Shown: in pieces, positions 24,143 through 47,840 of the stretch
Numbering within the stretch: position 1 is the stretch's first letter
How the letters are laid out: the number at the start of each line of letters is the position of its first letter
Assembly (NCBI RefSeq): GCF_002135435.1
Contig: NZ_NEGK01000010.1
Location: 62,001-126,000, forward strand
Reading direction: 5' to 3'
Length of the DNA stretch: 64,000 bases
Source: Acinetobacter sp. ANC 3813
Lineage (GTDB): Bacteria > Pseudomonadota > Gammaproteobacteria > Pseudomonadales > Moraxellaceae
The notes under the pieces: generated by a model
What the model was told of the DNA's origin: nothing
Seen by the model: only the letters and a program-made list of their open reading frames with translations
Database searches by the model: none
Translations under genes and position numbers: made by a program

Positions 24143-25018
24143 TTACAGCTTAAGTTCTTGGATTAATGCTTTGAACTCATTGCCTAATTTAGGATGAGCA
24201 ACACCGTAATGCAAAACAGCTTTCAGATAGCCAATTTTACTGCCGCAGTCAAATGTTTGACCTTTCATTCTATAGGCTTCGACCTGATCTGTTTGCTGCA
24301 GCATAGCAATCGCATCTGTCAGCTGAATTTCATTACCAGCGCCTTTAGGTGTCTGCTCAAGCAGCTGCATGATTTTTGCTGGCAATACATAGCGCCCAAC
24401 CACTGACAGATTTGAGGGTGCAGTACCAACTGGAGGTTTTTCTACAATGCCTTGCATAACAATACTTTTGCCTTCTTCAGGAACAACTGAAACGTCAACA
24501 ATACCATATTGGTCAACCAAATCATCTGGAACTGCTTCCACCATAATTTGTGAGGCCTGAGAAACATTAAAGCGGCCAATCATCAATGCTAGATCATTTT
24601 CCACATCATTAGATTGAACAAGCACATCAGGAAGCAAGACAGCAAAATCATCATCGCCGACAATGGCTTTTGCGCATAATACAGCATGGCCTAAACCTAA
24701 AGGCTGCGGCTGACGCACACTCACAACACTGACATGCGGCGGTAAAATTTCAGTGATCTCTTTTAACAGGTCATCTTTCTTTTTATTGGCTAAGGTCGTT
24801 TCCAGTTCAAAATTTCGATCAAAATAATTTTCAATCGATGCTTTAGAGCTATGGGTAACCAAAATAATTTGTTCAATGCCTGCAGCTACTGCTTCTTTCA
24901 CAACATATTCAATTGCTGGACGGTCTACGACTGTGACCATTTCTTTTGGAATGGATTTGCTTGCAGGTAAAAAACGGGTGCCTAAACCTGCAACGGGGAG
25001 AATAGCTTTCTTAATCAT
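24143..25018 (-). CDS. galU: UTP-glucose-1-phosphate uridylyltransferase
   Basis: Makes UDP-glucose from glucose-1-P. 291 residues. N-terminal LPVAGLGTRFLPASKSIPKEM, central EAVAAGIEQIILVTHSSK, and LLPDVLV with the metal-binding Asp. GIVEKPP and GNEIQLTDAI are family-typical. It begins the conserved galU-ugd-gpi-galE block that feeds UDP-Glc, UDP-GlcA and UDP-Gal(NAc) to the capsule. Confidence 0.97.
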   Translation of the reverse strand: MIKKAILPVAGLGTRFLPASKSIPKEMVTVVDRPAIEYVVKEAVAAGIEQIILVTHSSKASIENYFDRNFELETTLANKKKDDLLKEITEILPPHVSVVSVRQPQPLGLGHAVLCAKAIVGDDDFAVLLPDVLVQSNDVENDLALMIGRFNVSQASQIMVEAVPDDLVDQYGIVDVSVVPEEGKSIVMQGIVEKPPVGTAPSNLSVVGRYVLPAKIMQLLEQTPKGAGNEIQLTDAIAMLQQTDQVEAYRMKGQTFDCGSKIGYLKAVLHYGVAHPKLGNEFKALIQELKL

Positions 25019-25047
25019 AATCTAGATACTTATTTACAGCGATAAAT

Positions 25048-25677
25048 TTAAATTTTGTTTTCGTGCGCAGTTTTCGGCTTTTCAATAGGTGTGCTGGTAA
25101 ATCTCTCTGCACCAACCATCTGATCAGGGGAATTAATACCTTCTTTTGTAACCATCACCTTAACTGTCTTAAACATAATCTTAAAATCAATCAAAATTGT
25201 CTGCTTTTCGACATATTCAACATCTAAGTCAAATTTCTCTTCCCATGACAAATTATTCCGTCCGCTCACCTGTGCCAAACCCGTCATACCTGGTTTAACT
25301 TCATGCCGACGCATTTGATGAGGGGTATAATGTTCTAAAAAATCTTTCATTTGCGGACGCGGGCCAACAATGCTCATATCTCCTTTTAGCACATTAATCA
25401 GCTGAGGCATTTCATCCAGACTTGTTGAACGCAATTTATGGCCAAAAGGAGTAATGCGTTGATCATCTGGTAATGGATTACCCTGCTTATCTACAGAATC
25501 AAGCATTGATCTAAACTTTATCATTTTGAAAATTTTAGCATTTTTCCCTGGACGCTCTTGATAAAAAAAGACCGGAGACCCTAAATTTTTACGAACTTTG
25601 CAACAAACAAACAAAAAAATAGGAGATAAAATTATTAAAGCAAAAGTTGCAATAAAAATATCTAAAGAGCGTTTCAT
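25048..25677 (-). CDS. initiating sugar-phosphate transferase (ItrA-type), capsule module A
   Basis: A polyprenyl-P hexose-1-P transferase that puts the first sugar on undecaprenyl phosphate at the inner membrane. 209 residues: one re-entrant N-terminal hydrophobic segment (DIFIATFALIILSPIFLFV), then KVRKNLGSPVFFYQ, KIFKMIKFRSM, LRSTSLDEMPQLINVLKGDMS, VGPRP and KPGMTGLAQVSGRN. It lies just before galU, where A. baumannii loci carry itrA. A second enzyme of this family is encoded at 38337-38957, which is unusual within one locus. The C-terminal tail is about 30 residues longer than the catalytic core needs. Confidence 0.92.
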   Translation of the reverse strand: MKRSLDIFIATFALIILSPIFLFVCCKVRKNLGSPVFFYQERPGKNAKIFKMIKFRSMLDSVDKQGNPLPDDQRITPFGHKLRSTSLDEMPQLINVLKGDMSIVGPRPQMKDFLEHYTPHQMRRHEVKPGMTGLAQVSGRNNLSWEEKFDLDVEYVEKQTILIDFKIMFKTVKVMVTKEGINSPDQMVGAERFTSTPIEKPKTAHENKI

Positions 25678-25728
25678 TTCACCCCCTCAGGTTCAAAAAA
25701 ACATATTTGATTAATCTACTTTTTTAAA

Positions 25729-25761
25729 ATTAGATTTTGTTAAATTCTAACAAAATCTAAT
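25729..25761 (-). terminator. 14-bp perfect hairpin between GT2 and itrA (candidate terminator/attenuator)
   Basis: ATTAGATTTTGTTA pairs with TAACAAAATCTAAT around AATTC. On the minus strand it is followed by only three to four T's, so it would be a weak terminator. It lies in the only sizeable gap (101 bp) between the AT-rich module and the itrA-galU block, and may separate two transcription units or dampen expression. Confidence 0.5.
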
Positions 25762-25778: not shown

Positions 25779-26555
25779 TTACAATTTTAAAACTTTTGAA
25801 AGTGCTTTAAACTTGCTGCGAATGATACCTCTAATTGCATAATGAGAAAAATAGTAAATACTTTTAAATACATTAAGTTTTTCAATATTTCTATATAAAT
25901 ACCAATTATATTGAGCTGCTTTTAATTTATTAGCTGAAATCGAATCTTTACGAACAGTATAACCTGCTAAATCAAGAGGTAAGCAATAAGCATAAGGCAC
26001 AATTTTTAAAATTTTTAACCATAACGCAAAATCTTGGCGTTTTCTAATCAGTGGAAAATATACCTTTCCAATTATATTCGTATCATACATTGCTGTTAAG
26101 CAACCGATCACACATGTTTTCAATAATTCATGATAATTAACTTTTAATGGAAAATTTAAGTTATTTAATAAATTACCGTCCTCATCAACTTGATGGTATT
26201 GGGTATATGTTAAAGCATAATCATTATTTAACATAAAATTAACTTGCTCAAAAAGTTTTTCCGGCAACCAAGTATCGTCACTATCTAAAAATGCAATAAA
26301 ACGACCATTTGCGGCTTCAATACCGGTATTTCGTGCAACAGCAGCACCAGAGTTTTTCTCTAGTTTTATTAATTTAATTCGCTGGTCAATCTGAATAAAA
26401 TTATTAACAATTAAACAAGAATCATCACTTGAAGCATCGTCAACAATAATTAACTCCCAATCACTATAGGACTGATTTATAACAGATTCTATTGTTTTAT
26501 TTAAAAAACCAGATGAGTTGAAAGATGGGGTGATTATTGATACTAAATTATGCAT
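25779..26555 (-). CDS. GT2-family glycosyltransferase
   Basis: A capsule glycosyltransferase, 258 residues, GT-A fold: VSIITPSFNSSGFL start, LIIVDDASSDDS, GAAVARNTGIEAANGRFIAFLDSDDTW, with the D-x-D metal site in LDSDD. It is cytoplasmic and membrane-associated through basic residues at the C-terminus. Part of the AT-rich run of three GT2 genes. Donor and linkage cannot be told from sequence. Confidence 0.9.
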   Translation of the reverse strand: MHNLVSIITPSFNSSGFLNKTIESVINQSYSDWELIIVDDASSDDSCLIVNNFIQIDQRIKLIKLEKNSGAAVARNTGIEAANGRFIAFLDSDDTWLPEKLFEQVNFMLNNDYALTYTQYHQVDEDGNLLNNLNFPLKVNYHELLKTCVIGCLTAMYDTNIIGKVYFPLIRKRQDFALWLKILKIVPYAYCLPLDLAGYTVRKDSISANKLKAAQYNWYLYRNIEKLNVFKSIYYFSHYAIRGIIRSKFKALSKVLKL

Positions 26556-26557: not shown

Positions 26558-27307
26558 TTAACGTCTTGAAAAAAACCCTTTAAAAATAACCTTCAAAAAG
26601 GAAAGAAAACCTATTTCAGAATATTTAAATTTTTTTAAAGAAAATATAAAACAAATAGGAATACCATATAAACCAAAGACTCTTTTTATCATTGCACCTT
26701 TAGCTTCAATTAAAGACAACTTATTAAATTGACCTCCAGAAGACTCTTTTGGATGATAAACAATAACTTCAGGAACAAATCCTATCTTAAGTCCACAATT
26801 TAATGCATCAGCAAGAAAAATGTATTCTTCACTTGTAGCAAACTTGCTGCCTAACCCAAAATTTTCATCGAATTTAATGTTTTTATTAACAATAGCTTCT
26901 CTACGAAATGCAACTTCAACAGATGACACTTTTGCTAAAGATAACTTAGAATGCCAAAAAAATTCATCTTTATAATTTTTAAAACTCTCACCATCAGGTG
27001 TTTCTACTTTAAAAGTTAAAATATCAGCTTCTGGATACTTAACAAAAGATCTTGTCACAATATTTAAGGTTTCAGAGTCAAAATAAACATCATTATCACT
27101 CAATAGGCATATATCTGCACTTGCATTTTCAATGCACTTGTTTCTACTTTTTGATAAGCCAGTTTCAAAATAATTCTTAAATCCATCAACCTTATGCTCT
27201 TCAATTAGGCATTGATTAACAATTATTGGCTCGTAAGGTAACATACCTTTTTTAATAAATAATGGTTGTACGCCATACATTGTCGAACATAAAACTTGAA
27301 TTTTCAT
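26558..27307 (-). CDS. GT2-like glycosyltransferase
   Basis: 249 residues, divergent GT-A protein: MKIQVLCSTMYG start, SRNKCIENASADICLLSDNDVYF with a D-x-D site, and E-E-Y in FATSEEYIFLADAL as the acidic catalytic segment. It differs from the other two GT2s in lacking the usual SIIxPxYN start. It overlaps wzy by 4 bp (ATGA-type), and the next gene follows after 2 bp, so it is an operon member. Confidence 0.82.
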   Translation of the reverse strand: MKIQVLCSTMYGVQPLFIKKGMLPYEPIIVNQCLIEEHKVDGFKNYFETGLSKSRNKCIENASADICLLSDNDVYFDSETLNIVTRSFVKYPEADILTFKVETPDGESFKNYKDEFFWHSKLSLAKVSSVEVAFRREAIVNKNIKFDENFGLGSKFATSEEYIFLADALNCGLKIGFVPEVIVYHPKESSGGQFNKLSLIEAKGAMIKRVFGLYGIPICFIFSLKKFKYSEIGFLSFLKVIFKGFFSRR

Positions 27308-28569
27308 ATACCACTACCTTTTTTAATAAGATTATCCTTAGAGTTATAAAGATATAGATAAAAAATCACTAAAAGTAACAACTTATTATAAGAAACAGCA
27401 AACAAAATAATTTCACCTTTGTAATGCAGTAAAAAAGATAGAACACCAATTAAAAGGACTAATTTTTTTTCATCTTGACTATTTAGTTTGAAATACACAA
27501 ACAGCAAAAAAAAGGCAAAAGCGAAGTAAAATATTATTGAGTTGATCGCTCCATAAAATAGAGTAAACCTCATATATCCCGCATCTGTACGCATATAATA
27601 AGCATTACCATCCATATATTTTGCATCACCAATCAACAATTGTTTTTCACTCAAAGGGAAATACATTTTCTGCAATATATCTGTTGAGCTAGATCTAAGC
27701 TCACCATAATCTATATAATTAAAAATAGGCTCCATACTATAATTATATAAAACAGATAGAGCTGCTGGCTCAATTACTGAGTTTCGTATACTAATCAAAT
27801 ACGATAAAATAAAGACTAATGAAATAAAAGTTAGGAAGATTAATCTTAATATTTTAGTTCTATTTAAATACAGTGCCCAAAAAAACAACCCAGCAAAAAC
27901 ACCCAATAATGAGACTCGACCTGCACTAATTGATGCAATCAGCCCCAATGAAATAACTAAAAGAAAATATATACCACCAATGTAATTCTTCTTATAGCTA
28001 TAGAATGTTAATAAAACAAATAATGCCATTACAACAGAAAATCCAAAAGCAGCACTATCAGCAAGACCTAAACCTCTAGCTCCAGAATAGCTATCGAGCA
28101 TACGCTCAGTTAAAGCACTATCTTTAGTATATGTCATTATAAAATCAGAAAAAGTTGGATTTAAAAGCATTGCCAACACAATTAGTGATTGTATAAAAAA
28201 AATACTAGATAGGAAGACAAAAAAATCTTTCTTATTATAGTTTTCTGAAAAATATATACTTAAAATATAAGTTGCAACTACTGATAGAATCACATTTGTT
28301 TTAGTAATTAATATTGAAAAATCATAAACACCTGAATACGCACCCCATAAACCACAAATTACAAAATCATAGATCAGAAATAATACGATATAGAAAAAAG
28401 GCTTGCTTGATTTTAACAACCTCTTACCATAGAAGAAAAAACCTAAAAAACACAGTAAAGCAGTTAAAATTTGAGCTAAAGAACCTATTGGAGTCTTCAT
28501 TCCAAAAATAAAAAAGAAAGTTATAAAAAAAACAATATAACATTTATAATTTTTAAAAATAAAATTCAT
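27304..28569 (-). CDS. wzy: Wzy-type polysaccharide polymerase
   Basis: 421 residues, very hydrophobic, about 10-12 transmembrane helices. A long periplasmic loop (about residues 265-330; YSMEPIFNYIDYGELRSS and GNAYYMRTDAGYMR) carries an Arg-rich YMRF segment, as is typical of Wzy. Base composition is the most AT-rich of the locus, normal for wzy. It is the only recognisable polymerase gene in the whole region although there are two flippases. Assignment rests on topology and context. Confidence 0.82.
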   Translation of the reverse strand: MNFIFKNYKCYIVFFITFFFIFGMKTPIGSLAQILTALLCFLGFFFYGKRLLKSSKPFFYIVLFLIYDFVICGLWGAYSGVYDFSILITKTNVILSVVATYILSIYFSENYNKKDFFVFLSSIFFIQSLIVLAMLLNPTFSDFIMTYTKDSALTERMLDSYSGARGLGLADSAAFGFSVVMALFVLLTFYSYKKNYIGGIYFLLVISLGLIASISAGRVSLLGVFAGLFFWALYLNRTKILRLIFLTFISLVFILSYLISIRNSVIEPAALSVLYNYSMEPIFNYIDYGELRSSSTDILQKMYFPLSEKQLLIGDAKYMDGNAYYMRTDAGYMRFTLFYGAINSIIFYFAFAFFLLFVYFKLNSQDEKKLVLLIGVLSFLLHYKGEIILFAVSYNKLLLLVIFYLYLYNSKDNLIKKGSGI

Positions 28570-28591: not shown

Positions 28592-29461
28592 TCATCCTTT
28601 AAATTTATATTTAAGGAAAGACAACAGATAAACTAAATTACCTTTTACATCACAAATATTAAAAAACAATTTCACAAAAACATCTTTTAAATCAACTTTA
28701 GACTTATCATAATAAAACAAATGATTATTTAATGCTGATTTATACACTTTATCATTAATACAATGCTTTTCCATAAAAAGCTTCTTGGTATCAATAATTT
28801 TATTAATATTTTGATTACTTATACGATTCAACTCATGGCTTCTATCAACATAATATGTCGCCTTTCTCAATTTAAATATATCACCTAAACTGCTAAGTCT
28901 AAACCATAATTCTAAATCTTGCCAAGCCCTAAATTTTTCATCAAATCCGCCCAGTTTTCTAAATACTTCAGTTTTAGTAAAAACTTGATTTCCAACATAA
29001 TTAGCAAAATACAGATCTCGTGTTTTAATCACTCTTTTTGACAGCAAATAACTTACATATTCATGCAATTTACTCTTCTTAGTATCGCTATAATTTGGTG
29101 TAAACAATGCCACACAATCTTTAGGCTTTATAGCCCAACTTTTAACAAATAGCTCAACTCTTTGAGAAGTAAAGTAATCATCATCATCAAGACCCGTTAT
29201 GTACTCCCCACTAGCAGTATTTATAGCCATATTTCTGCTAACACATGCACCACTATTTTTATCTTTAAATATTAATATTATTCGAGAATCTTCTTTTTGT
29301 ATTTCTTTTAAAAAATTCCGCGTATTATCTGTGGAAAGATCATCCACAATAATAATTTCCAAATTTTTATAAGTTTGATTCCTAACAGAATCAATTGCAC
29401 GCTTTAATAACTCACATCTATTATATGTAGGTATATACACGCTAACTAATGGCTGATTCAT
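28592..29461 (-). CDS. GT2-family glycosyltransferase
   Basis: 289 residues, GT-A fold: VSVYIPTYNRCELLKRAI, IIIVDDLSTDNT, GACVSRNMAINTASGEYITGLDDDDYF (D-x-D in LDDDD), and WQDLELWFRLS as the catalytic ED region. AT-rich like its neighbours. It lies between wzy and the pyruvyl transferase. Specificity unknown. Confidence 0.92.
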   Translation of the reverse strand: MNQPLVSVYIPTYNRCELLKRAIDSVRNQTYKNLEIIIVDDLSTDNTRNFLKEIQKEDSRIILIFKDKNSGACVSRNMAINTASGEYITGLDDDDYFTSQRVELFVKSWAIKPKDCVALFTPNYSDTKKSKLHEYVSYLLSKRVIKTRDLYFANYVGNQVFTKTEVFRKLGGFDEKFRAWQDLELWFRLSSLGDIFKLRKATYYVDRSHELNRISNQNINKIIDTKKLFMEKHCINDKVYKSALNNHLFYYDKSKVDLKDVFVKLFFNICDVKGNLVYLLSFLKYKFKG

Positions 29462-29490: not shown

Positions 29491-30633
29491 TTAATTAACC
29501 ACCTGATTAATTTTTTGACCTATTGATATCCACATTTCTTCAATTTCATTTTTTAATCTCAATGCAGCTTGTGATATTTCTTGCTTTCTTTTATCCCTAA
29601 ATGTCTCATCTGCAAATTTCTCAATTTGCAATTCAAGAGAATTTATATCACCCAAGTCATCAATTAATCCATCTCTATTAGAAAAATCCTGAAATAATTC
29701 TGGATATTTGTGCGACCATCCAGCTCCTATACATGGTACCCCTTGCGACATAGAGCTAACTAGTGCATGAAATCTTGATCCAATTACAAATTCGGCTTTA
29801 CCCAATATATATTTTAAAACTTTGGGATTTTCATGCTGTACAACACCTATATTATTAGCTATTTCACCTAATGCACTAACAACTTTACAATCTTCTTGAG
29901 CATCATGAATAACAAATAACGGTGTTAAATTATTTTTTTTAATATGTAAAATTGATGTAGCAAGAAAATTTAAATATTTTTCAGGACTATCAGACTTATC
30001 TAACATTCTAATATTTGGAACTATAGCTACAAATTTTTCTGGAAGCTTTACCGCGTTATCTTCTTGAGGTGAAATAGCAATAGTAAAATCAGGAGCTTTC
30101 TTTATTAAATTTGCACTTTTATCTACAACTTTATTTGCATAGTTAAATGATTGATTATCCCTAGCAAAAACCATTTCAGCACGTTGAAAGAGTCTTTTCA
30201 CTAAATCATATACAGCTTTGTCATTAAATGATCCTAAAGCTTGTGGAAGCATAATAAATAACTGAGAATCTCTATATCCTTCGTTTAACTTGCCCAATAA
30301 TCTTTTTCCTGGATTTACTCCCCATTGATCAGAAAAAGCAAAACCTGAGGCATCAAAAATTACATTTACATTTTTAGGGTTGATAATCCTTTTATTAAGA
30401 AAAGAAGTTAACAAGGTTAAAAGTGGTTTTCTTTGCCGCGATTCAATACGTGATGATGTATAAAAGCCATATTTATTAATTTCTTTATATGTACCAAAAG
30501 TAGAACCAACAATAATTTTAGAGTTAGGGTACATAAGCTTTATTTTATCTGAAATCGCTATAGCCATTAGTTCAGCCCCTCTATTATGAGTTCCTGTACC
30601 ATGTATCTCAAAAACTATTTCCTTATTACTCAT
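29491..30633 (-). CDS. polysaccharide pyruvyl transferase (CsaB/WcaK family)
   Basis: Transfers pyruvate from phosphoenolpyruvate to a sugar as an acidic ketal. 380 residues: HGTGTHNRGAELMA at the N-terminus is the glycine-rich entry motif of the family. Later come MLPQALGSF, MVFARDNQS (RE/D motif) and the C-terminal IGSRFHALVSSMSQGVPCIG with the conserved HA. It overlaps the preceding nitroreductase-like gene by one base. It implies a pyruvylated, hence anionic, repeat unit. Confidence 0.9.
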   Translation of the reverse strand: MSNKEIVFEIHGTGTHNRGAELMAIAISDKIKLMYPNSKIIVGSTFGTYKEINKYGFYTSSRIESRQRKPLLTLLTSFLNKRIINPKNVNVIFDASGFAFSDQWGVNPGKRLLGKLNEGYRDSQLFIMLPQALGSFNDKAVYDLVKRLFQRAEMVFARDNQSFNYANKVVDKSANLIKKAPDFTIAISPQEDNAVKLPEKFVAIVPNIRMLDKSDSPEKYLNFLATSILHIKKNNLTPLFVIHDAQEDCKVVSALGEIANNIGVVQHENPKVLKYILGKAEFVIGSRFHALVSSMSQGVPCIGAGWSHKYPELFQDFSNRDGLIDDLGDINSLELQIEKFADETFRDKRKQEISQAALRLKNEIEEMWISIGQKINQVVN

Positions 30634-31709
30634 TACTCTGCACCTAAATTATTATATGTACGTATTTGACTTAAAGGTTTTTTTGTTGAGTTAGCCACCA
30701 TCCCTTCTGGATCAGGATGACCAAAAGCAATCAACATTATCGGACGCTCATCTGCAGCTAAGTTTAACAATTTTGCCATTTTAGTTTCCAGTTTAGGAAC
30801 ATCTGGCCAGTTTAAACAACATGAGCCTACACCCTGTACTTCCAATGCATTGATGAACGACATAATTGCCAGAGAGCCATCGATATAAATCAAATGGCGG
30901 TCTCGCTCATGATAATAATTCCGTAATTTTCCAACTACGACCGCAAGACAGGGAATTTGCTCTCCAAAACCTGCAGTGCCCATAGGAAGCTTAGCTAATT
31001 CTGATACCAATTGCTTATCATCAAATATACGGAACTCGTATGGTTGTCTATTGCAAGCAGTGGGTGAATAAGCGGCCACATCAATTGCTCTGTCAATAAT
31101 TTCACGTGATACTGGAGCATCTTCAAACCAACGTACAGAACGGCGGTATTTAGCTAAAGTCAATAATTGATCATAACTAATATCTGGTGTTGTGGTCGTT
31201 GAGCGTAAATAGGGGATTTTAGATTGTACATTGTCATCTTGCGGTACAGATAAAGAGGCTTTAATAACAAGATCTCTTAATGGATCAATTACTGGGTGAC
31301 TTGGAGTAATAGCCATATACTCCTGCAAGACATCACATGCCCATGCCAATTCACGAGCCTCAACCACATTAGACTCAACAGCGCGTATATAGGCATCTAC
31401 CGTTTCTTCTATGTAGTTCAAACCAAATGGGACACGACGTGGCCGCATCAATAAGCCTTTTTCAAGCCTATGGGTATTACGGCGCAATAAGCTGGTATTA
31501 AAAATTGGATTTTTGAGCGATTGAGCATAAATTTTTTTGCCAGTCAATACCGCACGATGCTCCCATCCAAATCGCCATTGGAATGCATAATACAAATTGG
31601 ACAAAAAGATACTATTGGCTGCGATATTAGTAGCAATATCATCTATTTTTTCCAATATTGCTTTAATAAATTTTTTGAGGGATTGGAACAATTTTTTTGG
31701 TAGACTCAT
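30633..31709 (-). CDS. nitroreductase-fold protein paired with pyruvyl transferase
   Basis: 358 residues. The C-terminal two thirds are an FMN-dependent nitroreductase fold: AKYRRSVRWFEDAPVSREIIDRAI, YSPTACNRQPYEFRI, and GVGSCCLNWP with IAFGHPDPEG. About 150 residues precede it, with FNTSLLRRNTHRLEKGL, a segment common to exopolysaccharide-linked members. It is tightly coupled on both sides (4-bp overlap with wzx, 1-bp with the pyruvyl transferase). Nitroreductase-like genes often sit beside pyruvyl transferase genes in polysaccharide clusters, but their role there is not established. Confidence 0.82.
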   Translation of the reverse strand: MSLPKKLFQSLKKFIKAILEKIDDIATNIAANSIFLSNLYYAFQWRFGWEHRAVLTGKKIYAQSLKNPIFNTSLLRRNTHRLEKGLLMRPRRVPFGLNYIEETVDAYIRAVESNVVEARELAWACDVLQEYMAITPSHPVIDPLRDLVIKASLSVPQDDNVQSKIPYLRSTTTTPDISYDQLLTLAKYRRSVRWFEDAPVSREIIDRAIDVAAYSPTACNRQPYEFRIFDDKQLVSELAKLPMGTAGFGEQIPCLAVVVGKLRNYYHERDRHLIYIDGSLAIMSFINALEVQGVGSCCLNWPDVPKLETKMAKLLNLAADERPIMLIAFGHPDPEGMVANSTKKPLSQIRTYNNLGAE

Positions 31710-33178
31710 TTGACTATCGTCCCTATTATTTTCAAATATTGCTGTAAGATATTTCTGCCTTTTGGCAAAACCAAAACTACCATAACAAATAAAATCAGAT
31801 ACATAAGACCACTAATAAGCAAATGCATTAACGGCTGGTTAATGTCTGTCATCCAGTACAATTGCACCCAATGCATCAAGGCTGCTGCCACAATCGAGGC
31901 AATAGCTGGAATTGCAATTGATGAAAAAAAGTCACTCGGATTAACAGGAGTATCTTTAAAGAAGAAATAGAGTGATGGGTAGATCAATAAGTAGTTAGCA
32001 ATGGCATAAGCAGCTGCTACGCCTTCTGCACTCCAGCGCACTCCAATAATAAAAGCAATGCTAACCACAATTGCATTGACCACACCCCATAGCACGTATA
32101 ATCGAGATTTACCTAAGCTAAGTAGGACCAACCCCCTCAATGTACCAACTGGCTGGATAAAACCACTGATACCAAGTAATACAAAAATCGGTACAAGCTG
32201 TTCCCAACCTTTACCCATGGCAACAGTGACTACGTTTGAAGCATTCACAACCAAAAAAGCCATTAATGGCATGGATAAAAAAGCCAGCAAAGTAGCAATT
32301 TTTTGGTAATAGGCTCTAAATGCTATTGGCTCATTTTGTAATTTACTAAGTACAGGATACGCAACCGAATTAATCGGTTGTCTTAAACTAGCAATCGGCA
32401 ACATCATCATTTGGTAGCCGCGACTGTATAACCCTAAAGTCACTGCCCCCCATACTTTTCCAATCAGGATATTGTCTAAGTTGCGATGGAAATAATTCAC
32501 TAATTCAAAAATAGTAACATTCGCACCAAAGCCTATGAGCTCCCGCATGCCTTCTGTCTTTTTAGGGCGGCTGGGGCGAAATTTTGAACCAAAAAAATAC
32601 ATCACTGTAGTAATTATTGCCCCAATGACTGTACCCCAGGCTAATGCCCAAAAACCATAACCGCATATAGCCATTACAATTGAAACCACCAAGGTGGCCA
32701 CCGCCCCAGCTATATCTGCAAGAACTTTAGGCTTAAAGCGCAATTCACGTTGCATTAAAGCAGAATGTTGCGCCCCAGCGCTAGAAATCAAAAAAGTACT
32801 GGACAATACCATAAGAACAGCTTGTAACTCGGGACGCTCATAAAACCAGCTGATTAAGGGAGCACACAACATGGTTATAATTGTTAATAAACCGCCAACA
32901 GCAACATTTAACCAGAATAATGCATTGGTTTGATCATAAGTTAAATCGCCCTTTTGAATGGATGCAGTTGATAACCCCATATCGCGAAACAATTGCATAA
33001 ATGAAGTAATCACCACCACCATAGCAATCAGACCAAAATCATCTGGCGACAGCAAACGAGAAAGAATGATAATCGATGCAAGCTGTAGCGCGATTTTAAT
33101 TAATTGGGCCACCATTGTTAAGGCACCACTCTTAACCGCTTTTTTTCCTAAGTCTGACCTGGAAACTTTTTCCGTCAT
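31706..33178 (-). CDS. Wzx/WzxC-type flippase, module A
   Basis: Moves undecaprenyl-linked repeat units across the inner membrane. 490 residues, MOP superfamily with about 12-14 helices; early motifs are KSGALTMVAQLIKIALQLAS, ILSRLLSPDDFGLIAMV and FRDMGLSTASIQKGDLT, characteristic of the WzxC/AmsL branch. GC is higher than in the genes that follow it, so the module itself is mosaic. A second flippase gene lies at 44337-45509. Confidence 0.9.
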   Translation of the reverse strand: MTEKVSRSDLGKKAVKSGALTMVAQLIKIALQLASIIILSRLLSPDDFGLIAMVVVITSFMQLFRDMGLSTASIQKGDLTYDQTNALFWLNVAVGGLLTIITMLCAPLISWFYERPELQAVLMVLSSTFLISSAGAQHSALMQRELRFKPKVLADIAGAVATLVVSIVMAICGYGFWALAWGTVIGAIITTVMYFFGSKFRPSRPKKTEGMRELIGFGANVTIFELVNYFHRNLDNILIGKVWGAVTLGLYSRGYQMMMLPIASLRQPINSVAYPVLSKLQNEPIAFRAYYQKIATLLAFLSMPLMAFLVVNASNVVTVAMGKGWEQLVPIFVLLGISGFIQPVGTLRGLVLLSLGKSRLYVLWGVVNAIVVSIAFIIGVRWSAEGVAAAYAIANYLLIYPSLYFFFKDTPVNPSDFFSSIAIPAIASIVAAALMHWVQLYWMTDINQPLMHLLISGLMYLILFVMVVLVLPKGRNILQQYLKIIGTIVK

Positions 33179-39691: not shown

Positions 39692-40831
39692 TTAATGGAT
39701 ATCCATTTCAGCCATCATGTGCTTATTCACTTGATGCACATCATATTTATTCAGCGCAATTTCCCGCGAACGCTGCCCCATATATTCAATCAATTTCGGA
39801 TCTTGAATAAAATACTGTATGCACTGCACCAGCTCATCGACTGATTTCACTGCCACCAAATAGCCATTCACGCCATTGGCCACGGTTTCACGGCAGCCTG
39901 GCGCATCGGTGGTAATCACTGCGCGGCCCATCGCCATGGCTTCCAGCACTGTCCGCGGCGTGCCCTCACGATAGGATGGCAAGACATACACCGAGCTGGC
40001 GGCAATCGCAGGACGTACATCACTGAGCTTACCCCAGTAATGAATTGCGCCTTCTGCAATCCACTGATCCAGTTCTGCTTGGGCAATGGCTGAGGGATTA
40101 TCATCAATCCAGCCCACCAAATGAAACTCCGCTTCTGGGTGTCTTGCTTTGATGATGCGTGCCGCTTCAGCATATTCACGTACGCCTTTGTCACCGAGCA
40201 ATCGTGCGATCAGCAGAAAAGAGGCTTTGACCACACCCGCATCATTATTAGGCAAAGGCATCACATCAAAATCCTGTACATTTACCCCTGAACCATTCAC
40301 CACCACTGTAGATGTGTGGGCGGTCAGCAGCTGCATGTCTTGAAACAGCTTGAGGTCATCTGGATTTTGAAAAAAGACTTTATGCGCATGTTTCAGCGCT
40401 TGGGCATACAGACTATGCACCAATTTTTGAAATACGCTGCGCTGACCCGATTCAATATTTTGAAAGGCATAGCCCAAACCTGTAATGAGTGCAAAGCGCT
40501 TTGGCGCGCGCGCCAGCCAAGCCGCCAGCGTGCCGTAAATGACAGGCTTAATGGTATAGGACAGCACAGCATCCGGCTGAATTTGACGAATCTGCCGATA
40601 GATATTTTTGAGGAGTTTTAAATCCGCCAGCGGATTGGTGCCCGTGCGCTGCATTGGAATTTCATGCAGGTGATAACCCAAAGCTTGCAGTTTTTGCTGT
40701 TCTTCCGGAAAGCTTGCAAACTCAGGCGCCATGATATGAATCTCATAGCCTTGGGCAGCAATGGCTTCCAATAATTTACCGCGAAAATTCAGCACGGAGG
40801 GCAAAAAACTGCTGATCATTAAAAATTTCAT
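39692..40831 (-). CDS. GT4-family glycosyltransferase (PglA-like)
   Basis: 380 residues, GT-B fold: ISSFLPSVLNFRGKLLEAI, the second-domain start (FLLIARLLGDKGVREYAEAA), and the E-x7-E motif in YREGTPRTVLEAMAMGRAVITTDAPGCRE. Members beside PglC-type initiators often add the second sugar (Gal or GalNAc). Start: ATG at 40831 overlaps the upstream stop as ATGA and has GGAG 9 bases upstream; ATG at 40846 would add 5 residues. Confidence 0.92.
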   Translation of the reverse strand: MKFLMISSFLPSVLNFRGKLLEAIAAQGYEIHIMAPEFASFPEEQQKLQALGYHLHEIPMQRTGTNPLADLKLLKNIYRQIRQIQPDAVLSYTIKPVIYGTLAAWLARAPKRFALITGLGYAFQNIESGQRSVFQKLVHSLYAQALKHAHKVFFQNPDDLKLFQDMQLLTAHTSTVVVNGSGVNVQDFDVMPLPNNDAGVVKASFLLIARLLGDKGVREYAEAARIIKARHPEAEFHLVGWIDDNPSAIAQAELDQWIAEGAIHYWGKLSDVRPAIAASSVYVLPSYREGTPRTVLEAMAMGRAVITTDAPGCRETVANGVNGYLVAVKSVDELVQCIQYFIQDPKLIEYMGQRSREIALNKYDVHQVNKHMMAEMDIH

Positions 40832-41922
40832 GCCTGTTGGCTCCACACCTGCATATATTGGCGGCTGACGGTTTCAATACTGAAATTCTGTTCAACCCGT
40901 TCACGCGTCGCCTGTTTTAAGGCGTGTTTTTCTGCTTCTGATTTTTGCACATAAGCCAAAATTGCATCGGCTAAAGCTTGTGCATTACGCGGCGGCACAA
41001 TTGATCCTAAGTCCTGCACAATATATTGCGCATCACCGACATCAGTACTGATGCAAGGCAGACCTGATGCCATGGCTTCAACCAAGACATTCGGAAAACC
41101 TTCGGTAATCGAAGTCATGAGGAATGCATCGATGGATTGATAAAAAGCGGGCATATCCGAGATTTGATCAAGCAACTGTACTTTTTGGCTGTCCAGTTGA
41201 TACTCCTCAAATAAGGCTTTGACTTCCACGTTATCTAAACTCGCGCCACTACCTGCAATTTTAAAGATGATATTTTCACCTCTTAATAAGCTCATAGTTT
41301 CAAACAAATAAGGATAGCCCTTTGCAGGATGATAACGCCCAGCAAAGCCAATCACCGTCGGCTGATGCAATTGGGGATTGGGCTGGAATTTATCTAAAAA
41401 CACCCCATTGGCAATCACTTGGCTGTTGCCATTTTTAAAACCAAAGGCCTGATGCTGCTCTAATGAAGAATGCGCACAATAAATAATGCTGTTGGGCTGT
41501 TTGGATAAAATTTTACTTAAGCCCAAAGCAATTTTGGTGCTGATGGATTCGTCTTTCGGGGAAGCAAGCGAATGATGAATGCCCCATACTACCTTTGGTT
41601 TTTTCGCTAAGCCAATGGTGCTCAAACTGGTCAATGCATTGGCATGATACATCCAGCATTGCGCCGTTGCTGGCTGCAGTTTTTTGAGCAATGAACGTAG
41701 CTTGCTCACCGTACCCAGCGTATTAATACCATTCCAGCCCAGCGCATAATGTGCCTGACAGCGATCAAGCGTGCTTTGATACACCTCAGAAGTTTTCATT
41801 AAAGCAATGATCACATGTTCGTATTGGTGTTCAGTGTATTGAATCAAACGCGCCAGCATCATTTCAGCCCCGCCCACGCCTGCAAAATTGGTGATCACAT
41901 GCACCATCAATGGTTTGCTCAT
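40828..41922 (-). CDS. GT4-family glycosyltransferase
   Basis: 364 residues: N-terminal NFAGVGGAEMMLARL is the acceptor-side glycine motif. The donor domain starts VIGFAGRYHPAKGYPYLFE, and SITEGFPNVLVEAMASGLPCISTDVGDA holds the E-x7-E motif. It overlaps both neighbours by 4 bp, as expected of a tightly coupled capsule operon. Confidence 0.93.
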   Translation of the reverse strand: MSKPLMVHVITNFAGVGGAEMMLARLIQYTEHQYEHVIIALMKTSEVYQSTLDRCQAHYALGWNGINTLGTVSKLRSLLKKLQPATAQCWMYHANALTSLSTIGLAKKPKVVWGIHHSLASPKDESISTKIALGLSKILSKQPNSIIYCAHSSLEQHQAFGFKNGNSQVIANGVFLDKFQPNPQLHQPTVIGFAGRYHPAKGYPYLFETMSLLRGENIIFKIAGSGASLDNVEVKALFEEYQLDSQKVQLLDQISDMPAFYQSIDAFLMTSITEGFPNVLVEAMASGLPCISTDVGDAQYIVQDLGSIVPPRNAQALADAILAYVQKSEAEKHALKQATRERVEQNFSIETVSRQYMQVWSQQA

Positions 41923-43052
41923 TCTGCAGACTCCATCATGTTCAAGTACTGCTTCAGAACCGTTGCTTTGTGGAATTGCTGAATATGGGCTTCAAAATCA
42001 GCTACTGAATACTGTACATAATCAGAAAAAATTGCCTGTTGCATGGCTTGCGTCAAACCTGCTTGATCATTGCATTCAACTAATAAACCAAACTTGGAGG
42101 TTTCTAAAATTTCCATCGGCCCACTTGGACAGTTGGTACTCACTACTTTCACTTTGGAAGCAAGTGCCTGAATCAGTACACCCGGTAGACCTTCCCAATT
42201 TGAGCTTAAAACAAACAGCGATGCATATTTAAAATAGGCATAGGGGTTGGAGTCAAAGCCAGGTAAATCTACCACGTCTTTTAAACCTAAGCCCGATACC
42301 AAAGCTTCGAACTCAGTACGCAGTTCCCCTTCCCCTAAAATAATCAGGCGCGTATCCGCATGCTGATCATGTAAAGCTTTAAAAGAACGAATTAGAAAAC
42401 CAAAGTTTTTTGCTTCAGTCAGGCGACCTACCGCCAAAATCACTTTATTAGTTTGATTCAGTGGGTTGCTATTAAAAAAACGATGTATGACAGGCGCTTT
42501 GAGTTTTTCAAAATAGGCATCATCCAGTACAGGGTTATAAATGGTGCTCAAATTGTTTTTTTTATAAGCATAATATTCACGAAAATCTGTTTCTACACCT
42601 TTGGAGACACAGATCACTTGCTGTGCCATCGGATAGGTCCAATCCACCAAGGTTTTCAGCACAAACTTAGCAAAACCCTGCAATTTCATATTTTTTGATG
42701 GCGTGGACACTTCACGAAAAATCAAACGTGTATTGACGCCTGCCAGCTTTTTGGCAATGCCCGCCACAATATTGGTATGAGTTTGCGTTGCCACTAAGCA
42801 ATCATACTGTTCAACTTTCAGCTTCATTTTTAACGGTTTGATGCTATTCATCACTCGACCGCAATTAAAATTCACCAATTGAATTTTCGGGCTGACTTCA
42901 GGCAAGAGTTTGGCTTTGTCATCGGTTACATCGCATACACCCAAATGAATATTCAGGCCTTGCTCGGCAAAGCTATTCGCCAGTTGAATGACCGTACGTT
43001 CTGCACCGCCACCGCCCAAGCTTGGCAAAAAGAACATGACTTTATTCAACAT
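41919..43052 (-). CDS. GT4-family glycosyltransferase
   Basis: 377 residues: FFLPSLGGGGAERTVIQLA at the start, VILAVGRLTEAKNFGFLIRSF opening the donor domain, and SNWEGLPGVLIQALASKVKVVSTNCPSGP with an E-x7-Q/E variant of the catalytic motif. Start at 43052 has AGG 8 bases upstream. First of three consecutive GT4 genes, so module B would build about four sugars including the primer. Confidence 0.93.
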   Translation of the reverse strand: MLNKVMFFLPSLGGGGAERTVIQLANSFAEQGLNIHLGVCDVTDDKAKLLPEVSPKIQLVNFNCGRVMNSIKPLKMKLKVEQYDCLVATQTHTNIVAGIAKKLAGVNTRLIFREVSTPSKNMKLQGFAKFVLKTLVDWTYPMAQQVICVSKGVETDFREYYAYKKNNLSTIYNPVLDDAYFEKLKAPVIHRFFNSNPLNQTNKVILAVGRLTEAKNFGFLIRSFKALHDQHADTRLIILGEGELRTEFEALVSGLGLKDVVDLPGFDSNPYAYFKYASLFVLSSNWEGLPGVLIQALASKVKVVSTNCPSGPMEILETSKFGLLVECNDQAGLTQAMQQAIFSDYVQYSVADFEAHIQQFHKATVLKQYLNMMESAE

Positions 43053-43083: not shown

Positions 43084-43659
43084 TTAATGCGGTGTTTTAG
43101 AAGCTTGAATAGCCATGGCGCGTTCAACCCGCTCACGATAATCCATGATGCCTGCAAGATCACTATCACTCACACAAGTACTTTGAATTTTGGCTTGATA
43201 ATCGACAAAACTCGACACCACTTTGGCAGGTACACCAATAGCTACACTATTATCAGGAATGTCTTTGGTGACCACTGAACCTGCGCCAATCACCACATTT
43301 GATCCAATGCTCACGCCCGGCATGACAATGGTATTGACCCCAATAAACACATGCGAGCCGACTTGAATCGAGGCAAAGCGCTGATAGCGTTTGCCTTGCG
43401 TATCTTTCACCAAACAGGTACTGCCGTCATGGGTAATAAACTTCACCCCTGAGGTCACGGTGACATGATCACCAATGGAGACTAAAAAGGGTTCTGAGCC
43501 CCAGCTTTTAATATAGATTCGGCAGTTTTCACCCACTTTCACCCCTTTTTTACGCGCATAAGCCACACTGCCCTTTGCCATAAAATAAGCAAGATCGAAC
43601 AGCTGTCGAAAAGCAGAAACCATAAAAGCCATATGCAGTACCTGAATGAGGCGGGTCAA
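43084..43659 (-). CDS. hexapeptide-repeat acyltransferase
   Basis: 191 residues with an LbH fold of the maltose O-acetyltransferase type: FITHDGS supplies the catalytic His, and IGVNTIVMPGVSIGSNVVIGAGSVVTKDIPDNSVAIGVPAKVV forms the C-terminal coils (in parts). A short helical N-terminus precedes it. Probably O- or N-acetylates a sugar in the repeat unit; which one is unknown. Confidence 0.88.
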   Translation of the reverse strand: MTRLIQVLHMAFMVSAFRQLFDLAYFMAKGSVAYARKKGVKVGENCRIYIKSWGSEPFLVSIGDHVTVTSGVKFITHDGSTCLVKDTQGKRYQRFASIQVGSHVFIGVNTIVMPGVSIGSNVVIGAGSVVTKDIPDNSVAIGVPAKVVSSFVDYQAKIQSTCVSDSDLAGIMDYRERVERAMAIQASKTPH

Positions 43660-43743: not shown

Positions 43744-44355
43744 CTACAGCGATTTGATTTTTTTAGCAGGAATGCCGACATACACCCCGGATTCATCCAA
43801 AGGCTTCGACACCAGACTGCAAGCGCCAATCACTGAATCATTTGGAATCGTCACGCCATCGAGCACCGTGACACGCGCGCCAAGCCAAATATTTTCACCC
43901 AGACACACGCCTTGTTTAGTGATGGCATCTTTCACCAATAAATCAGGTTCGCCAAATTTATGATTGCTGGCAATCAGGATGCTTTGCGTGCCAATACGCG
44001 TGTTGTCGCCAATGCTCACACCGCCGCAGCCATTGATAAACGACTTGGAATTGATACTGACATCATGCCCAATACTGATCTTGCCACCAAAACATTTAAT
44101 ATAGCAGTTTTCCCCAATAAAACTGTTGTCGGCAATCTCCAGTACTGCGCCTTGCTCGACAATTAAACTGACATGATCGCCAATATAAACATTTTTACCA
44201 ATCTTGACCTGACCGCTAATATCCACCGTACAGCCTTTGCCGAAATAGCGGAATTGCGTGCCGAATGCCTCGTTATAAAATTGCTTGCGGCATTGTGCAG
44301 ACAACCAATTCATCAGTTTTAAAAGTTTAAAAAACATCAGCCTTTGTTTCTCCAC
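43744..44355 (-). CDS. hexapeptide-repeat acyltransferase
   Basis: 203 residues: many imperfect hexapeptide coils (IGKNVYIGDHVSLIVEQG, IGHDVSINSKSFINGCGG, IGDNTRIGTQSILIASNHKF with the likely catalytic His, IWLGARVTVLDGVTI) and the usual VGIPAKKIKSL end. It overlaps the wzx stop by 19 bp if it starts at 44355, or begins at an in-frame ATG at 44337. Confidence 0.88.
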   Translation of the reverse strand: MEKQRLMFFKLLKLMNWLSAQCRKQFYNEAFGTQFRYFGKGCTVDISGQVKIGKNVYIGDHVSLIVEQGAVLEIADNSFIGENCYIKCFGGKISIGHDVSINSKSFINGCGGVSIGDNTRIGTQSILIASNHKFGEPDLLVKDAITKQGVCLGENIWLGARVTVLDGVTIPNDSVIGACSLVSKPLDESGVYVGIPAKKIKSL

Positions 44356-45509
44356 ACCACATATAAAATGGCAAAGTTATAAAAAATCAGCGCAATCGGC
44401 ACAGCCAGCAGCATTAAAACCTTATCATCCAAACACAAATACAGCCCAGCGAATAATGCAAATTTAATGAGCAATTCTACGATTTGCAAACGGAATAAGA
44501 TTTGGCTATTGCGCTTGGCAATTAAATAGGCTGAGCTTGGCGGATTACAAAAAACTGCCCAATAGCCCAAAGCCAAAATTTGGAAATAGGTTGAAATACC
44601 GACCCATTCACTGCCAAAAACCCATAAATAGAGCGATTCAGGCAAGATAAAGAAAATTGCAAAAAGAGGCAGTGAAACCAAACTCAGCAATACACTGCTT
44701 TTCAGTGCGGCGTGATTGGATTCAGTATTTTTAAATTTACGAATGAAAAACTGACGTAAAGTCTGTGAAATCAGATTGATCGGAACACGTAAGGTACGCT
44801 CGACAATGGCATAGAACCCCATCGCTTGCACACCAACAAAATGCGACACCACATAGTAGGGTAAGTTATGCGAAAAACTATTCAGCAAGGCATGTGGTGT
44901 ATTGCTATAGATAAAATCTTTGTAGTTTTTAAACGCCCACCAACTGACTTGGTAAAGCTGATATTTCAATATGAAAAGCAACATCGCCACGATCATCAAG
45001 ATCGAGCTGAGATTATAGCTATTCAGCAAACTGATCTGCATAAACAGCGGCAAACTCAGCTGCACCGCTAACACAATTGCACTTCTAAAAATATTTAAGC
45101 CTGCGCAAAAATATTCTTTATGCGCAGCAAATTGATAGTTATAAATGCTTTGAATCAAGGTATTGGCAAGTACGCCCGTTGCCACAGCAAATGCCATTTC
45201 AACATTTAAAATCAAGCTGATGACAATGCCGCTGATGGCTGCAATTACCGTTGAGAAAACAGCACCCTCAAAAATCAGGCTTTTTTTATCCTGTTCTTCG
45301 GCAACCAACAGCGCTTGATCCAAACGTAAATTGGCTACTGTTGAAAGCACACTGACCACCGCCAAGGCAATGCCATACGCGCCAAAGTCCTGCACGGAAT
45401 ATAGACGCGTTAAAACAGGAAGTGCGATAAATGTCATTATCGCACCTGCCAATAAACTCAATGTAATCAGTCCAATGGACTGATATTTTGCGAAGAGTTT
45501 CGCAATCAT
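44337..45509 (-). CDS. wzx: Wzx-type flippase, module B
   Basis: 390 residues, about 12 transmembrane helices, MOP superfamily: LSLLAGAIMTFIALPVLTRLYSVQDFGAYGIAL is the typical first-helix pair (quoted as landmark in parts), and YVVSHFVGVQAMGFYAIVERTL follows. It exports the repeat unit of module B. It is shorter than and not closely similar to the flippase at 31706-33178. Confidence 0.9.
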   Translation of the reverse strand: MIAKLFAKYQSIGLITLSLLAGAIMTFIALPVLTRLYSVQDFGAYGIALAVVSVLSTVANLRLDQALLVAEEQDKKSLIFEGAVFSTVIAAISGIVISLILNVEMAFAVATGVLANTLIQSIYNYQFAAHKEYFCAGLNIFRSAIVLAVQLSLPLFMQISLLNSYNLSSILMIVAMLLFILKYQLYQVSWWAFKNYKDFIYSNTPHALLNSFSHNLPYYVVSHFVGVQAMGFYAIVERTLRVPINLISQTLRQFFIRKFKNTESNHAALKSSVLLSLVSLPLFAIFFILPESLYLWVFGSEWVGISTYFQILALGYWAVFCNPPSSAYLIAKRNSQILFRLQIVELLIKFALFAGLYLCLDDKVLMLLAVPIALIFYNFAILYVVWRNKG

Positions 45510-45519
45510 CAGTTCAAGA

Positions 45520-46542
45520 TCATTTTAAATTATTGACGTACCATCGCATGGCCAATTGAATGCCTTCCGCAATTTTAAACTGCGGCGCATAACCCAAATA
45601 CTGCTCAATTTTGGCAATGCTGGCTTGCGAATGCCGCACATCACCCGCTCGAAATTCACGATAGACAGGATCACGCTCAAAGTTCACCGCATTTTCAGCC
45701 AAGGCCACTTGAATCGCACGGTACAAGTCGTTCAGTGTGGTACGGTCACCCACCGCCACGTTATAGACCTGATTTTTGGCATCATCAGAAGCTGTCGCCG
45801 CCAAAATATTGGCTTGCACCGTATTATCAATAAAGCAGAAATCACGGCTGGTTTCACCATCACCATTGATGAAGACATCCTCTCCCGCAATCATCGATGC
45901 CGTCCATTTTGGAATCACTGCAGCATAGGCGCCGTTTGGATCTTGGCGCTGGCCGAATACATTGAAGTAGCGCAGACCAATGGCTTTAAAACCGTAGCTG
46001 CGTGCAAACACATCCGCATACAGTTCATTGACATATTTAGTCACTGCATACGGTGACAATGGGTTGCCAATGTTTTCTTCCACTTTTGGCAATGCAGGAT
46101 GATCGCCATAAGTCGAACTGCTGGCTGCATAGGTAAAGCTTGAAACACCCGCATCGCGCGCAGCGGTCAGCATATTCAAGAAACCGCTGATATTGGTTTC
46201 ATTGGTGGTGATCGGATCGGCAATTGAACGCGGCACAGAACCCAGCGCTGCTTCATGCAAGACATAATCCACGCCTGCACAGGCTTTTTGGCAATCTTCG
46301 AATTTGCGGATATCACCTTCAATAAAGCTGAATTTCGCCCATTGCTCAGCGGTCACTAAGCTTTGCACTTCATCGAGGTTATGTGGATGACCTGTCGCGA
46401 AATTGTCTAAGCCCACAACTTTTTGATTCAGCTTCAGCAAAGTTTCAAGAAGGTTCGAGCCAATAAAGCCTGCAACACCTGTGACTAACCAAATTTTTGG
46501 GTTTTGATTTAATTGCTCACATATAGTTTGATATTGGCTCAT
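45520..46542 (-). CDS. wbpP: UDP-GlcNAc 4-epimerase (WbpP/TviC type)
   Basis: 340-residue extended [40 protein letters not shown], catalytic Y-x-x-x-K in [12 protein letters not shown], and [21 protein letters not shown]. This subgroup prefers N-acetylated sugars and works with the adjacent Gna/WbpO dehydrogenase to give UDP-GalNAcA. Follows gna by 20 bp. Confidence 0.94.
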
Positions 46543-46562
46543 TCTCTTCTGTTTCCTTAAAA

Positions 46563-47840
46563 TTATAAACGAATGTCAGATTCAGCTTGGTCTAACACAT
46601 ATTTTAAATCATATAAAATGTGTGCTTTTTTACCTAATGCACGAATTTTCTCTGCACCCATTTTTTTAAACTGTTCATGCGCAACAGCTAAGATTACTGC
46701 ATCATAAGCGTCCGCTTCCACAGACTGCACAGGGCTGATGCCGTATTCATGCTCTGCCTCTGCCGCATCGACCCATGGATCATAAACGTCGACATTGGCA
46801 TGATATTCTTTCAACTCATTTACAATGTCGATAATGCGGGTATTGCGGATATCTGGGCAGTTTTCTTTAAAGCTTAAGCCTAAAATTAAGACTTTAGCGC
46901 CTTCCACTTGAATGCGTTTCTTCAGCATCGCTTTGACCAGCTGAGTCACCACATAAGCGCCCATGCTGTCATTTAAGCGGCGCCCTGCCAGAATAATTTC
47001 TGGGTGATAGCCAATCGCCTGCGCTTTATGGGTCAAATAGTACGGATCGACACCAATACAGTGCCCACCGACCAAGCCTGGACGGAACGGTAAAAAGTTC
47101 CATTTGGTACCTGCAGCCTGCAGCACAGCTTCGGTATCAATGCCCATTTTATTGAAAATCAACGCCAATTCATTAATTAATGCAATATTGACATCACGCT
47201 GGGTGTTTTCAATCACCTTCGCCGCTTCTGCGACTTTAATGCTGGCGGCTTTATGGGTGCCCGCTTCAATAATCAAGTTATAAACCTGATCCACATAATC
47301 AGCCACTTCAAGCGTTGAACCTGAGGTAATTTTTAATATATTGGTGACACGGTGCAGTTTATCGCCTGGATTAATACGTTCAGGACTATAGCCTGCATAA
47401 AAATCCTGATTGAATGTTAGGCCTGATACTTTTTCTAATACCGGAATACAGGTTTCTTCTGTGGCGCCCGGATAAACTGTTGATTCATAAACAACAATAT
47501 CGCCTTTCTTTAACACCTTGCCTATGCTTTCTGAAGCTTTAATCAAAGGTGTTAAATCTGGCTGCTTATATTCATCAATTGGGGTCGGTACAGTCACAAT
47601 AAAAAAGTTGCAGCTGCTTAAATCTTGTAAATTTGCACTGTAGCTTAATTGAGCAGCCTGCTTTAACTCTTCCGGAGACACTTCCAATGTATGGTCTTGA
47701 CCGTTTCGAAGCTCATCAATGCGTTTTTGATGAATATCAAAACCGACTACCGGCACTTTCTTACCAAATTCAACTGCTAACGGCAAACCCACATAGCCAA
47801 GTCCAATAATTGCTATTTTTAGTTCAGAGAGTTGTAACAT
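46563..47840 (-). CDS. gna: UDP-N-acetyl-hexosamine 6-dehydrogenase (Gna/TviB/WbpO)
   Basis: Oxidises UDP-GlcNAc or UDP-GalNAc to the uronate. 425 residues: [66 protein letters not shown], and the Cys nucleophile in [13 protein letters not shown]. First gene of the minus-strand capsule cluster, divergent from wza. Third nucleotide-sugar dehydrogenase in the window. Confidence 0.95.

Follow-up and report, generated by a model that had tools for sequence, protein, structure and literature searches.

Among the gene clusters with which the capsule locus of Acinetobacter sp. ANC 3813 can be compared, the emulsan (wee) cluster of A. venetianus RAG-1, from which the weeH-I-J-K naming and order are known, forms one cluster that includes a wzy of its own and has galU directly after weeK, and the pgl genes of Neisseria form a conserved group for a single short lipid-linked O-glycan, which PglL uses. 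According to published sources, Acinetobacter O-glycans derive from the capsule K-units of variable K loci (2025 review, PMC12645811), and 237 K loci are recorded for A. baumannii, among which three without wzy use one located elsewhere and two have two wzy genes (PMC9676051). The initiator gene weeH was present in all clusters then known, each set with wzx and wzy, and two clusters carry a second initiator (WbpL) without obvious function (PMC3726653); KL8 and KL9 of A. baumannii also have two initiators, one of which was judged to be a remnant (PMC3628348). The A. radioresistens PglC has been treated as serving both products, the O-glycan part being presumed (PMC8402811), and the A. variabilis K locus is Wzy-dependent, with a PglL homologue and no WaaL (PMC12904642). 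No description of a wzy-free WeeH module was found in one open-access library as covered by titles, abstract starts and passages, with subscription papers mostly outside that coverage. The locus analyzed here contains such a module. It lies in a window of 64,000 nucleotides (the whole stretch of DNA analyzed; its own genome, of 3.86 Mb in 21 contigs, is termed G000) and comprises two gene sets in series, module B (34574-47840) and module A (25048-34353), the latter occupying the interval between weeK and galU, hereafter the slot.

With the A. baumannii K loci the window shares the borders typical of Wzy-dependent K loci in Acinetobacter (wza-wzb-wzc at one end and galU-pgm at the opposite end), the Wzx/Wzy logic and the presence of PglL elsewhere in the genome, and it resembles KL1 in combining an initiator with genes (qhb/gdr, beside galU in KL1) for a QuiNAc4N-type sugar (PMC3628348). 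However, whereas A. baumannii uses one K-unit for both capsule and protein glycosylation (PMC12645811), and a K locus is expected to hold one initiator, one wzx and one wzy, the window encodes two initiators, two flippases and one wzy candidate, with the WeeH module devoid of wzy. Two initiators are likewise encoded by KL8/KL9 and by PSgc5/PSgc24 of serovar strains (PMC3628348, PMC3726653), but there the second (ItrB2/WbpL) either lies next to the first or accompanies a sugar-gene block and was judged functionless; unlike in KL8/KL9, each initiator in the window has its own flippase and glycosyltransferases. The ogcXABEI genes of Burkholderia offer a further likeness, being conserved as a group that provides PglL with one short lipid-linked O-glycan (PMC12152626). 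In contrast to these and to the Neisseria pgl genes, the set in the window is located within the capsule locus and has the same borders as that locus. With the emulsan-type cluster, compared by gene order, it has the weeH-I-J-K order in common, but galU does not directly follow weeK, the two being separated by an insert of 9556 bases. The weeH-I-J-K names used here are assumed from family matches together with the emulsan-type order, and the border gene that we take to be pgm is named from its open reading frame (ORF) and the usual gene order rather than from a family search.

We consider it probable that the two modules are independent assembly lines in tandem, of which module B yields one constant, short, unpolymerised lipid-linked oligosaccharide for O-oligosaccharyltransferases and module A a capsule that leaves the cell via the shared Wza-Wzb-Wzc; gene content, conservation, selection and co-occurrence are observed, whereas sugars, unit size and the destinations of both products are inferred. 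The 13 genes of module B, all on the minus strand, run from tviB (47840) through weeK (34574) in the order tviB-tviC-wzx-acetyltransferases-three glycosyltransferases-weeH-I-J-K. Judging by their families, WeeK (34574..36433, a PglF-like 4,6-dehydratase and the last gene, whose best family, PseB at 3e-53, is under cut-off), WeeJ (36496..37665, a PglE-like aminotransferase; PF01041, 1.6e-94) and WeeI (37682..38344, a PglD-like acetyltransferase; TIGR03570 above cut-off) would make a UDP-QuiNAc4NAc-type sugar, which WeeH (38337..38957, a WeeH/PglC initiating transferase; PF02397, E 1.5e-63) would put as the first sugar on undecaprenyl phosphate. TviB (46563..47840, the first gene, a TviB/Gna-like UDP-GlcNAc 6-dehydrogenase; PRK15182, 719 bits against a cut-off of 592) and TviC (45520..46542, a TviC/Gne2-like C4 epimerase; PRK15181, E 6e-160, under cut-off) would provide a UDP-GalNAcA-type sugar. 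The GT4 glycosyltransferases GtB3 (41919..43052, nearest PglJ; NF050063, 5e-50, under cut-off), GtB2 (40828..41922; PF13692) and GtB1 (39692..40846; PF13692) could then extend the oligosaccharide, the hexapeptide acetyltransferases AtB3 (43744..44355; PF00132), AtB2 (43084..43659; PF14602, PF00132) and AtB1 (39120..39659; PF00132) could decorate it, and WzxB (44337..45509; PF13440, 1.5e-17) would flip it. With no Wzy in the module, the product would remain a single unit, which PglL (62486..64000, plus strand; PF04932, PF11846 and PF15864 above their cut-offs) would move to proteins, and a TfpM-like ligase probably to pilin. The pglL gene extends past the end of the window, its open frame in the genome encoding 548 amino acids.

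In module A, likewise on the minus strand, InitA (25048..25677; PF02397, E 1.4e-64) would load the first sugar, WzxA (31706..33178; PF13440, 2e-91) would flip the unit, the candidate polymerase WzyA (27304..28569) would polymerise it, and the product would be exported by the one wza-wzb-wzc set, which adjoins both modules (48238..51972, plus strand; equivalog matches below curated cut-offs). The module further comprises its first gene, ugdA (33184..34353, a UDP-glucose 6-dehydrogenase; PRK15057 at 1e-177 under cut-off, TIGR03026 above cut-off), a nitroreductase-family gene (30633..31709; PF00881, 8e-23), a pyruvyl transferase gene (29491..30633; PF04230, 2e-27) and genes for three glycosyltransferases, the GT2 enzyme GtA3 (28592..29461; PF00535), the GT2-like GtA2 (26558..27307; PF00535 borderline, 23.4 against a cut-off of 23.3 bits) and the TuaG-like GT2 enzyme GtA1 (25779..26555; NF047683, 5e-92, under cut-off). 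On its right the slot is bordered by galU (24143..25018, minus strand; TIGR01099 above cut-off). The GC content of the insert is 0.324, that of module B 0.449 and that of the window outside the locus 0.457. A promoter consensus search at the start of module A returned two matches against 6.4 expected, giving no evidence of a promoter there.

The first-pass annotation of this DNA had listed two initiators, two flippases, one Wzy candidate and three nucleotide-sugar dehydrogenases, had placed a module between the dehydratase gene weeK and galU, and had found no wzy in the module on the weeK side. All these genes are indeed present, as is the inserted module, and gene content and intergenic gaps bear out the absence of wzy; among the dehydrogenases, those at 46563 (TviB-like) and 33184 (Ugd-like) pass the TIGR03026 cut-off, and the one at 22867 falls just under it (185.8 vs 189.8 bits). 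A whole-genome profile search of G000 gave only two PF02397 matches, WeeH and InitA, both of which align nearly full length with the solved PglC chains 8g1n (E 1.5e-68 and 9.5e-55, respectively) and 8e37. Both also retain, in the PglC alignment, the Asp-Glu pair (D93/E94 in WeeH, D88/E89 in InitA) that is catalytic in PglC-type monotopic initiators; hence neither looks inactive, a possibility that the annotation had allowed for. WzyA, in turn, has no Pfam match, even at E 10, and its fold model is unusable (predicted local distance difference test score of 43 in a two-sequence model), so the polymerase call rests on its 11 hydrophobic segments and its position. In a sample of 175 Acinetobacter genomes, one per species, it has one good relative, 47% identical, in G067, where it sits in the K locus holding that genome's single initiator, and one marginal relative in G174. 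A hidden second wzy inside module B can be ruled out, the largest intergenic gap being 163 bases.

This sample, in which ORFs were called mechanically, membrane ORFs were recognised by a hydropathy rule and wzx and wzy were separated by their number and not by family, shows module B to be far more constant than the slot. WzxB orthologues (62-90% identity) occur in 31 of the 175 genomes, including G000, with 13 further genomes giving weak matches only. Gene maps of 35 loci reveal a nearly constant module B gene order across the WzxB genomes, and in 28 of these 31 no wzy-like ORF is seen in the module (G156 being read from WzxB to weeJ only). Across 18 two-module genomes with a slot read through to galU, the median identity to the window is 74-89% per module B gene, with 89% for tviB. 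The slot usually carries a differing gene set with its own initiator, wzx and wzy. Among 19 two-module genomes, G000 included, the slots contain 37 membrane ORFs resembling wzx or wzy, 30 of which have no partner of at least 50% identity in any other slot, and the same is true of 61 of 167 other slot genes. The shared part of the slots is the initiator, 13 of the 19 belonging to one group at the 50% level and the other six to two smaller groups. The earlier view of the locus as an anomaly of one strain does not hold: PF02397 is present in 160 of the 175 genomes, with two or three matches in 52, and the slot of the two-module relatives is filled, mostly by differing genes. The two-module layout is a recurring arrangement in the genus, not a single-strain oddity.

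Individual slots depart from the common form. In G117 the second gene set flanks module B at its opposite end, G103 and G173 have slot initiators that are encoded on the other strand and are just 42-43% identical to InitA, and the slot of G019 holds one long membrane ORF plus one of 247 amino acids. G011 (A. bouvetii SFB21) has in its slot the same wzx/nitroreductase-family/pyruvyl transferase trio as the window (29491-33178), at 58-65% identity, although there the other neighbours mostly differ from those in the window. Past the slot initiator of G002 and G107 (L057, L068-L069), galU, ugd and pgi were not seen.

Module B is under purifying selection. Between G000 and ten two-module genomes, the median ratios of nonsynonymous to synonymous substitution (dN/dS) of its genes are 0.04-0.09, and over all comparisons made the individual ratios are 0.02-0.17, save for a single value of 0.28 for weeJ in the near-identical pair G162/G163 (dN 0.003). 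The median dS between G000 and the same ten genomes is 0.6-1.3 for WzxB, atB3, atB2 and the three glycosyltransferases, as against 2.2-2.6 for galU, pgi and galE; the lower values in module B would fit interspecies exchange, with dS above about 2 being saturated and codon bias another possible factor. WeeK exists in two types, one about 80-86% identical to that of the window in most slot-bearing loci and one about 60% identical in most loci where weeK adjoins galU, G117, G162 and G163 being the exceptions among the latter. The WeeK C-terminus had been considered as a recombination scar, an idea that was dropped on finding it variable in all classes.

A further line of evidence comes from five genomes, G027, G072, G112, G162 and G163, which have module B with one initiator and no wzy-like ORF in it, and which lack a slot module. 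The Wza of the window has no match at E 0.001 in any of them, in a search of nine genomes with Wza and not Wzc; matches were obtained in G000 and G117 only, G156 (80% complete) and G123 (no WzxB) also having none. Between G027 and G072 (dS 0.5-1.4) the dN/dS of module B genes is 0.03-0.10, as compared with 0.05-0.07 for galU, pgi and galE. PglL is kept in all five genomes and is in each the sole protein above the Wzy_C cut-off. Module B is, therefore, maintained under selection where no recognisable gene seems to polymerise its product and no Wza of this kind seems to export it.

All 31 WzxB genomes contain PglL (PglL_A), and module B as a whole has the composition expected of a dedicated PglL O-glycan module: an initiator, glycosyltransferases and a flippase with no polymerase, and a PglL-type enzyme in the genome. 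Two proteins of G000 lie above the Wzy_C cut-off, PglL and a ligase-like protein on contig C18, near a pilin gene. The latter was tried as an orphan capsule Wzy and rejected: since a type IV pilin gene (PF00114) is one gene away and TfpM is its sole NCBIfam match (40.8 bits against a cut-off of 600), it is read as a TfpM-like pilin ligase. At this site (L013:10789-13864) the Wzy_C protein gene, one for a membrane protein that looks sulfatase-like by eye and the type IV pilin gene stand side by side, and it is likely a pilin glycosylation site.

The absence of wzy from WeeH-type modules is further linked to the presence of a second initiator. With a cut of at least 74% identity, 88 of the 175 genomes have a WeeH-type initiator, the next matches being at most 66% identical; 87 of these loci were read (G147 being left out) and 79 were callable, after exclusion of eight loci cut by contig ends (G002, G019, G034, G040, G051, G073, G126, G156) and retention of three end-touching loci that show two membrane ORFs (G104, G146, G160). 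Initiator and Poly_export counts were transferred by hand from the genus-wide PF02397 and PF02563 tables. Modules without wzy make up 28 of 41 loci in genomes with two or more initiators vs 5 of 38 in genomes with one (Fisher p = 8e-7, a value uncorrected for relatedness and hence too small); judging by their maps, G002 and G019 also lack wzy, and counting them gives 30 of 43 for loci with two initiators. When these two are added to the 79, a WeeH+WeeJ tree of the 81 loci shows at least 5 changes of wzy state, vs about 26 in shuffles; the state is thus clustered on the tree yet has changed more than once, a number that recombination may inflate. Eight of the 28 wzy-less two-initiator loci carry a flippase other than WzxB. 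Two or more Poly_export (PF02563) genes, of which G000 has one, are found in 3 of the 28 wzy-less two-initiator genomes (4 of 30 with G002 and G019, the latter having two) vs 11 of the 13 two-initiator genomes whose WeeH module bears a wzy (p = 7e-6), and in 3 of 33 one-initiator genomes with wzy. This is the pattern expected if only polymer-making modules require an exporter.

A second, polymerase-free sugar set that is nearly constant across dozens of Acinetobacter species, next to capsule genes that vary, suggests that the protein-attached sugar is made separately from the capsule. We lean, on balance, towards a scenario in which the protein O-glycan of many Acinetobacter species comes from its own constant polymerase-free module, which would have arisen repeatedly by wzy loss from WeeH-type K loci, would move between species as a block, and would persist when the capsule is replaced, gives way to an ATP-binding cassette (ABC)-exported one or disappears. 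In Acinetobacter one and the same molecule is regarded as both capsule unit and protein O-glycan (PMC12645811), so that a change of capsule should alter the glycoproteome. If a constant module without polymerase does stand next to an exchangeable capsule slot, the two would be uncoupled, and the one-pathway rule would hold for only part of the genus. A conserved O-glycan would then be predicted across about 28 species, the WeeH gene alone would not reveal the capsule type, the effect of Wzy loss would become directly testable, and natural strains without a Wza-type capsule would allow the O-glycan to be studied by itself.

Several observations count against such a division of labour. The presence of a second initiator does not entail Wzy loss, since 13 two-initiator genomes retain a wzy-like ORF within their WeeH module; 11 of these carry at least two Poly_export genes. 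In three WzxB genomes with a single initiator (G001, G026, G172), module B itself includes a wzy-like ORF, so that nearly the same module evidently can serve a polymer. The content of module B is also imperfectly constant: G127 has no called atB2, G172 lacks close orthologues of gtB3 and gtB2, and the occurrence of atB1 is patchy. Its presence in 7 of 18 two-module relatives suggests that the glycan, constant in other respects, varies in O-acetylation. Four of the five genomes without a match to the window's Wza have a different Poly_export protein (open frames of 559-563 amino acids; G027 has none). In G163, the genome in which the surroundings were inspected, it adjoins KpsM- and KpsE-like genes (matches under curated cut-offs), which points to a putative ABC-exported capsule, and that genome has another export route, though none known to take Wzx-flipped units. 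PglL, moreover, could also take the module A unit.

These second Wza-like proteins were read as different Poly_export proteins and not as close Wza homologues, that of G163 being 24% identical to the window's Wza across 63% of it. In G163 (L071:14857-19149) genes for a KpsM-like protein, an ATPase, a KpsE-family protein and Poly_export stand in a row, about 13 kb beyond the K-locus pgm, and G026 and G117 have ORFs sized like this ABC export set at the same side.

Other accounts of module B have to be weighed against the same data. Its unit might be polymerised by a Wzy encoded elsewhere, resulting in two capsules, as the A. baumannii loci KL19, KL24 and KL39, which have no wzy, use a genomic-island wzy (PMC9676051), a precedent that also tells against a polymerase-free product. 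Wzy sequences are very diverse, WzyA itself matching no Pfam family, and this diversity is too great to prove the absence of another Wzy elsewhere in the genome. Nonetheless, this account is unlikely: an orphan Wzy would be required in about 28 genomes, each from a different GTDB species, the wzy-like ORF of the WzxB module in G026 has homologues in 2 of the 175 genomes, itself included, and none in G000 (the G001 ORF was not searched), the proteins of G000 above the Wzy_C cut-off are PglL and the pilin-ligase-like protein only, and the five module-B-only genomes combine PglL as sole Wzy_C protein with the lack of a match to the window's Wza. Distinctly unlikely, too, is the use of the module B glycan on another acceptor, for instance as a lipid-linked or lipooligosaccharide-linked single unit; the acceptor proposed here is a deduced one, but in the module-B-only genomes no Wzy_C-family ligase other than PglL exceeds the cut-off, and PglL accompanies WzxB without exception. 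The earlier suggestion that one of the two products is used for protein glycosylation stands as the best-supported of the functions proposed for module B.

It is very improbable that both modules feed one mixed polymer or that WzyA polymerises both units, for module B is near-constant while the wzy-like ORF of the slot differs in nearly every genome read, and module B persists in genomes without a slot module, even though the window itself, with its one wzy candidate and one wza-wzb-wzc set adjoining both modules, would be compatible with a single product. Least credible of all is the notion that module B is the remnant of an earlier capsule locus whose polymerase was lost on the arrival of module A. 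Relatives with an internal wzy-like ORF (G001, G026, G172) do exist, and the uncalled atB2 of G127 might look like decay, but the low dN/dS values, obtained also between genomes without wzy and the window's Wza and exceeded only by the weeJ value from the near-identical pair, and a gene order preserved in about 28 genomes, argue against a relic. The tandem arrangement, with module B producing an unpolymerised O-glycan precursor, is hence preferred over these four accounts.

Beyond the capsule genes proper, the window contains between galE and pgm (19341-20192) an ORF of 283 amino acids, without an NCBIfam match and secreted-looking by eye, which is surrounded by an AT-rich stretch with a GC content of 0.32 for window positions 19001-20000.

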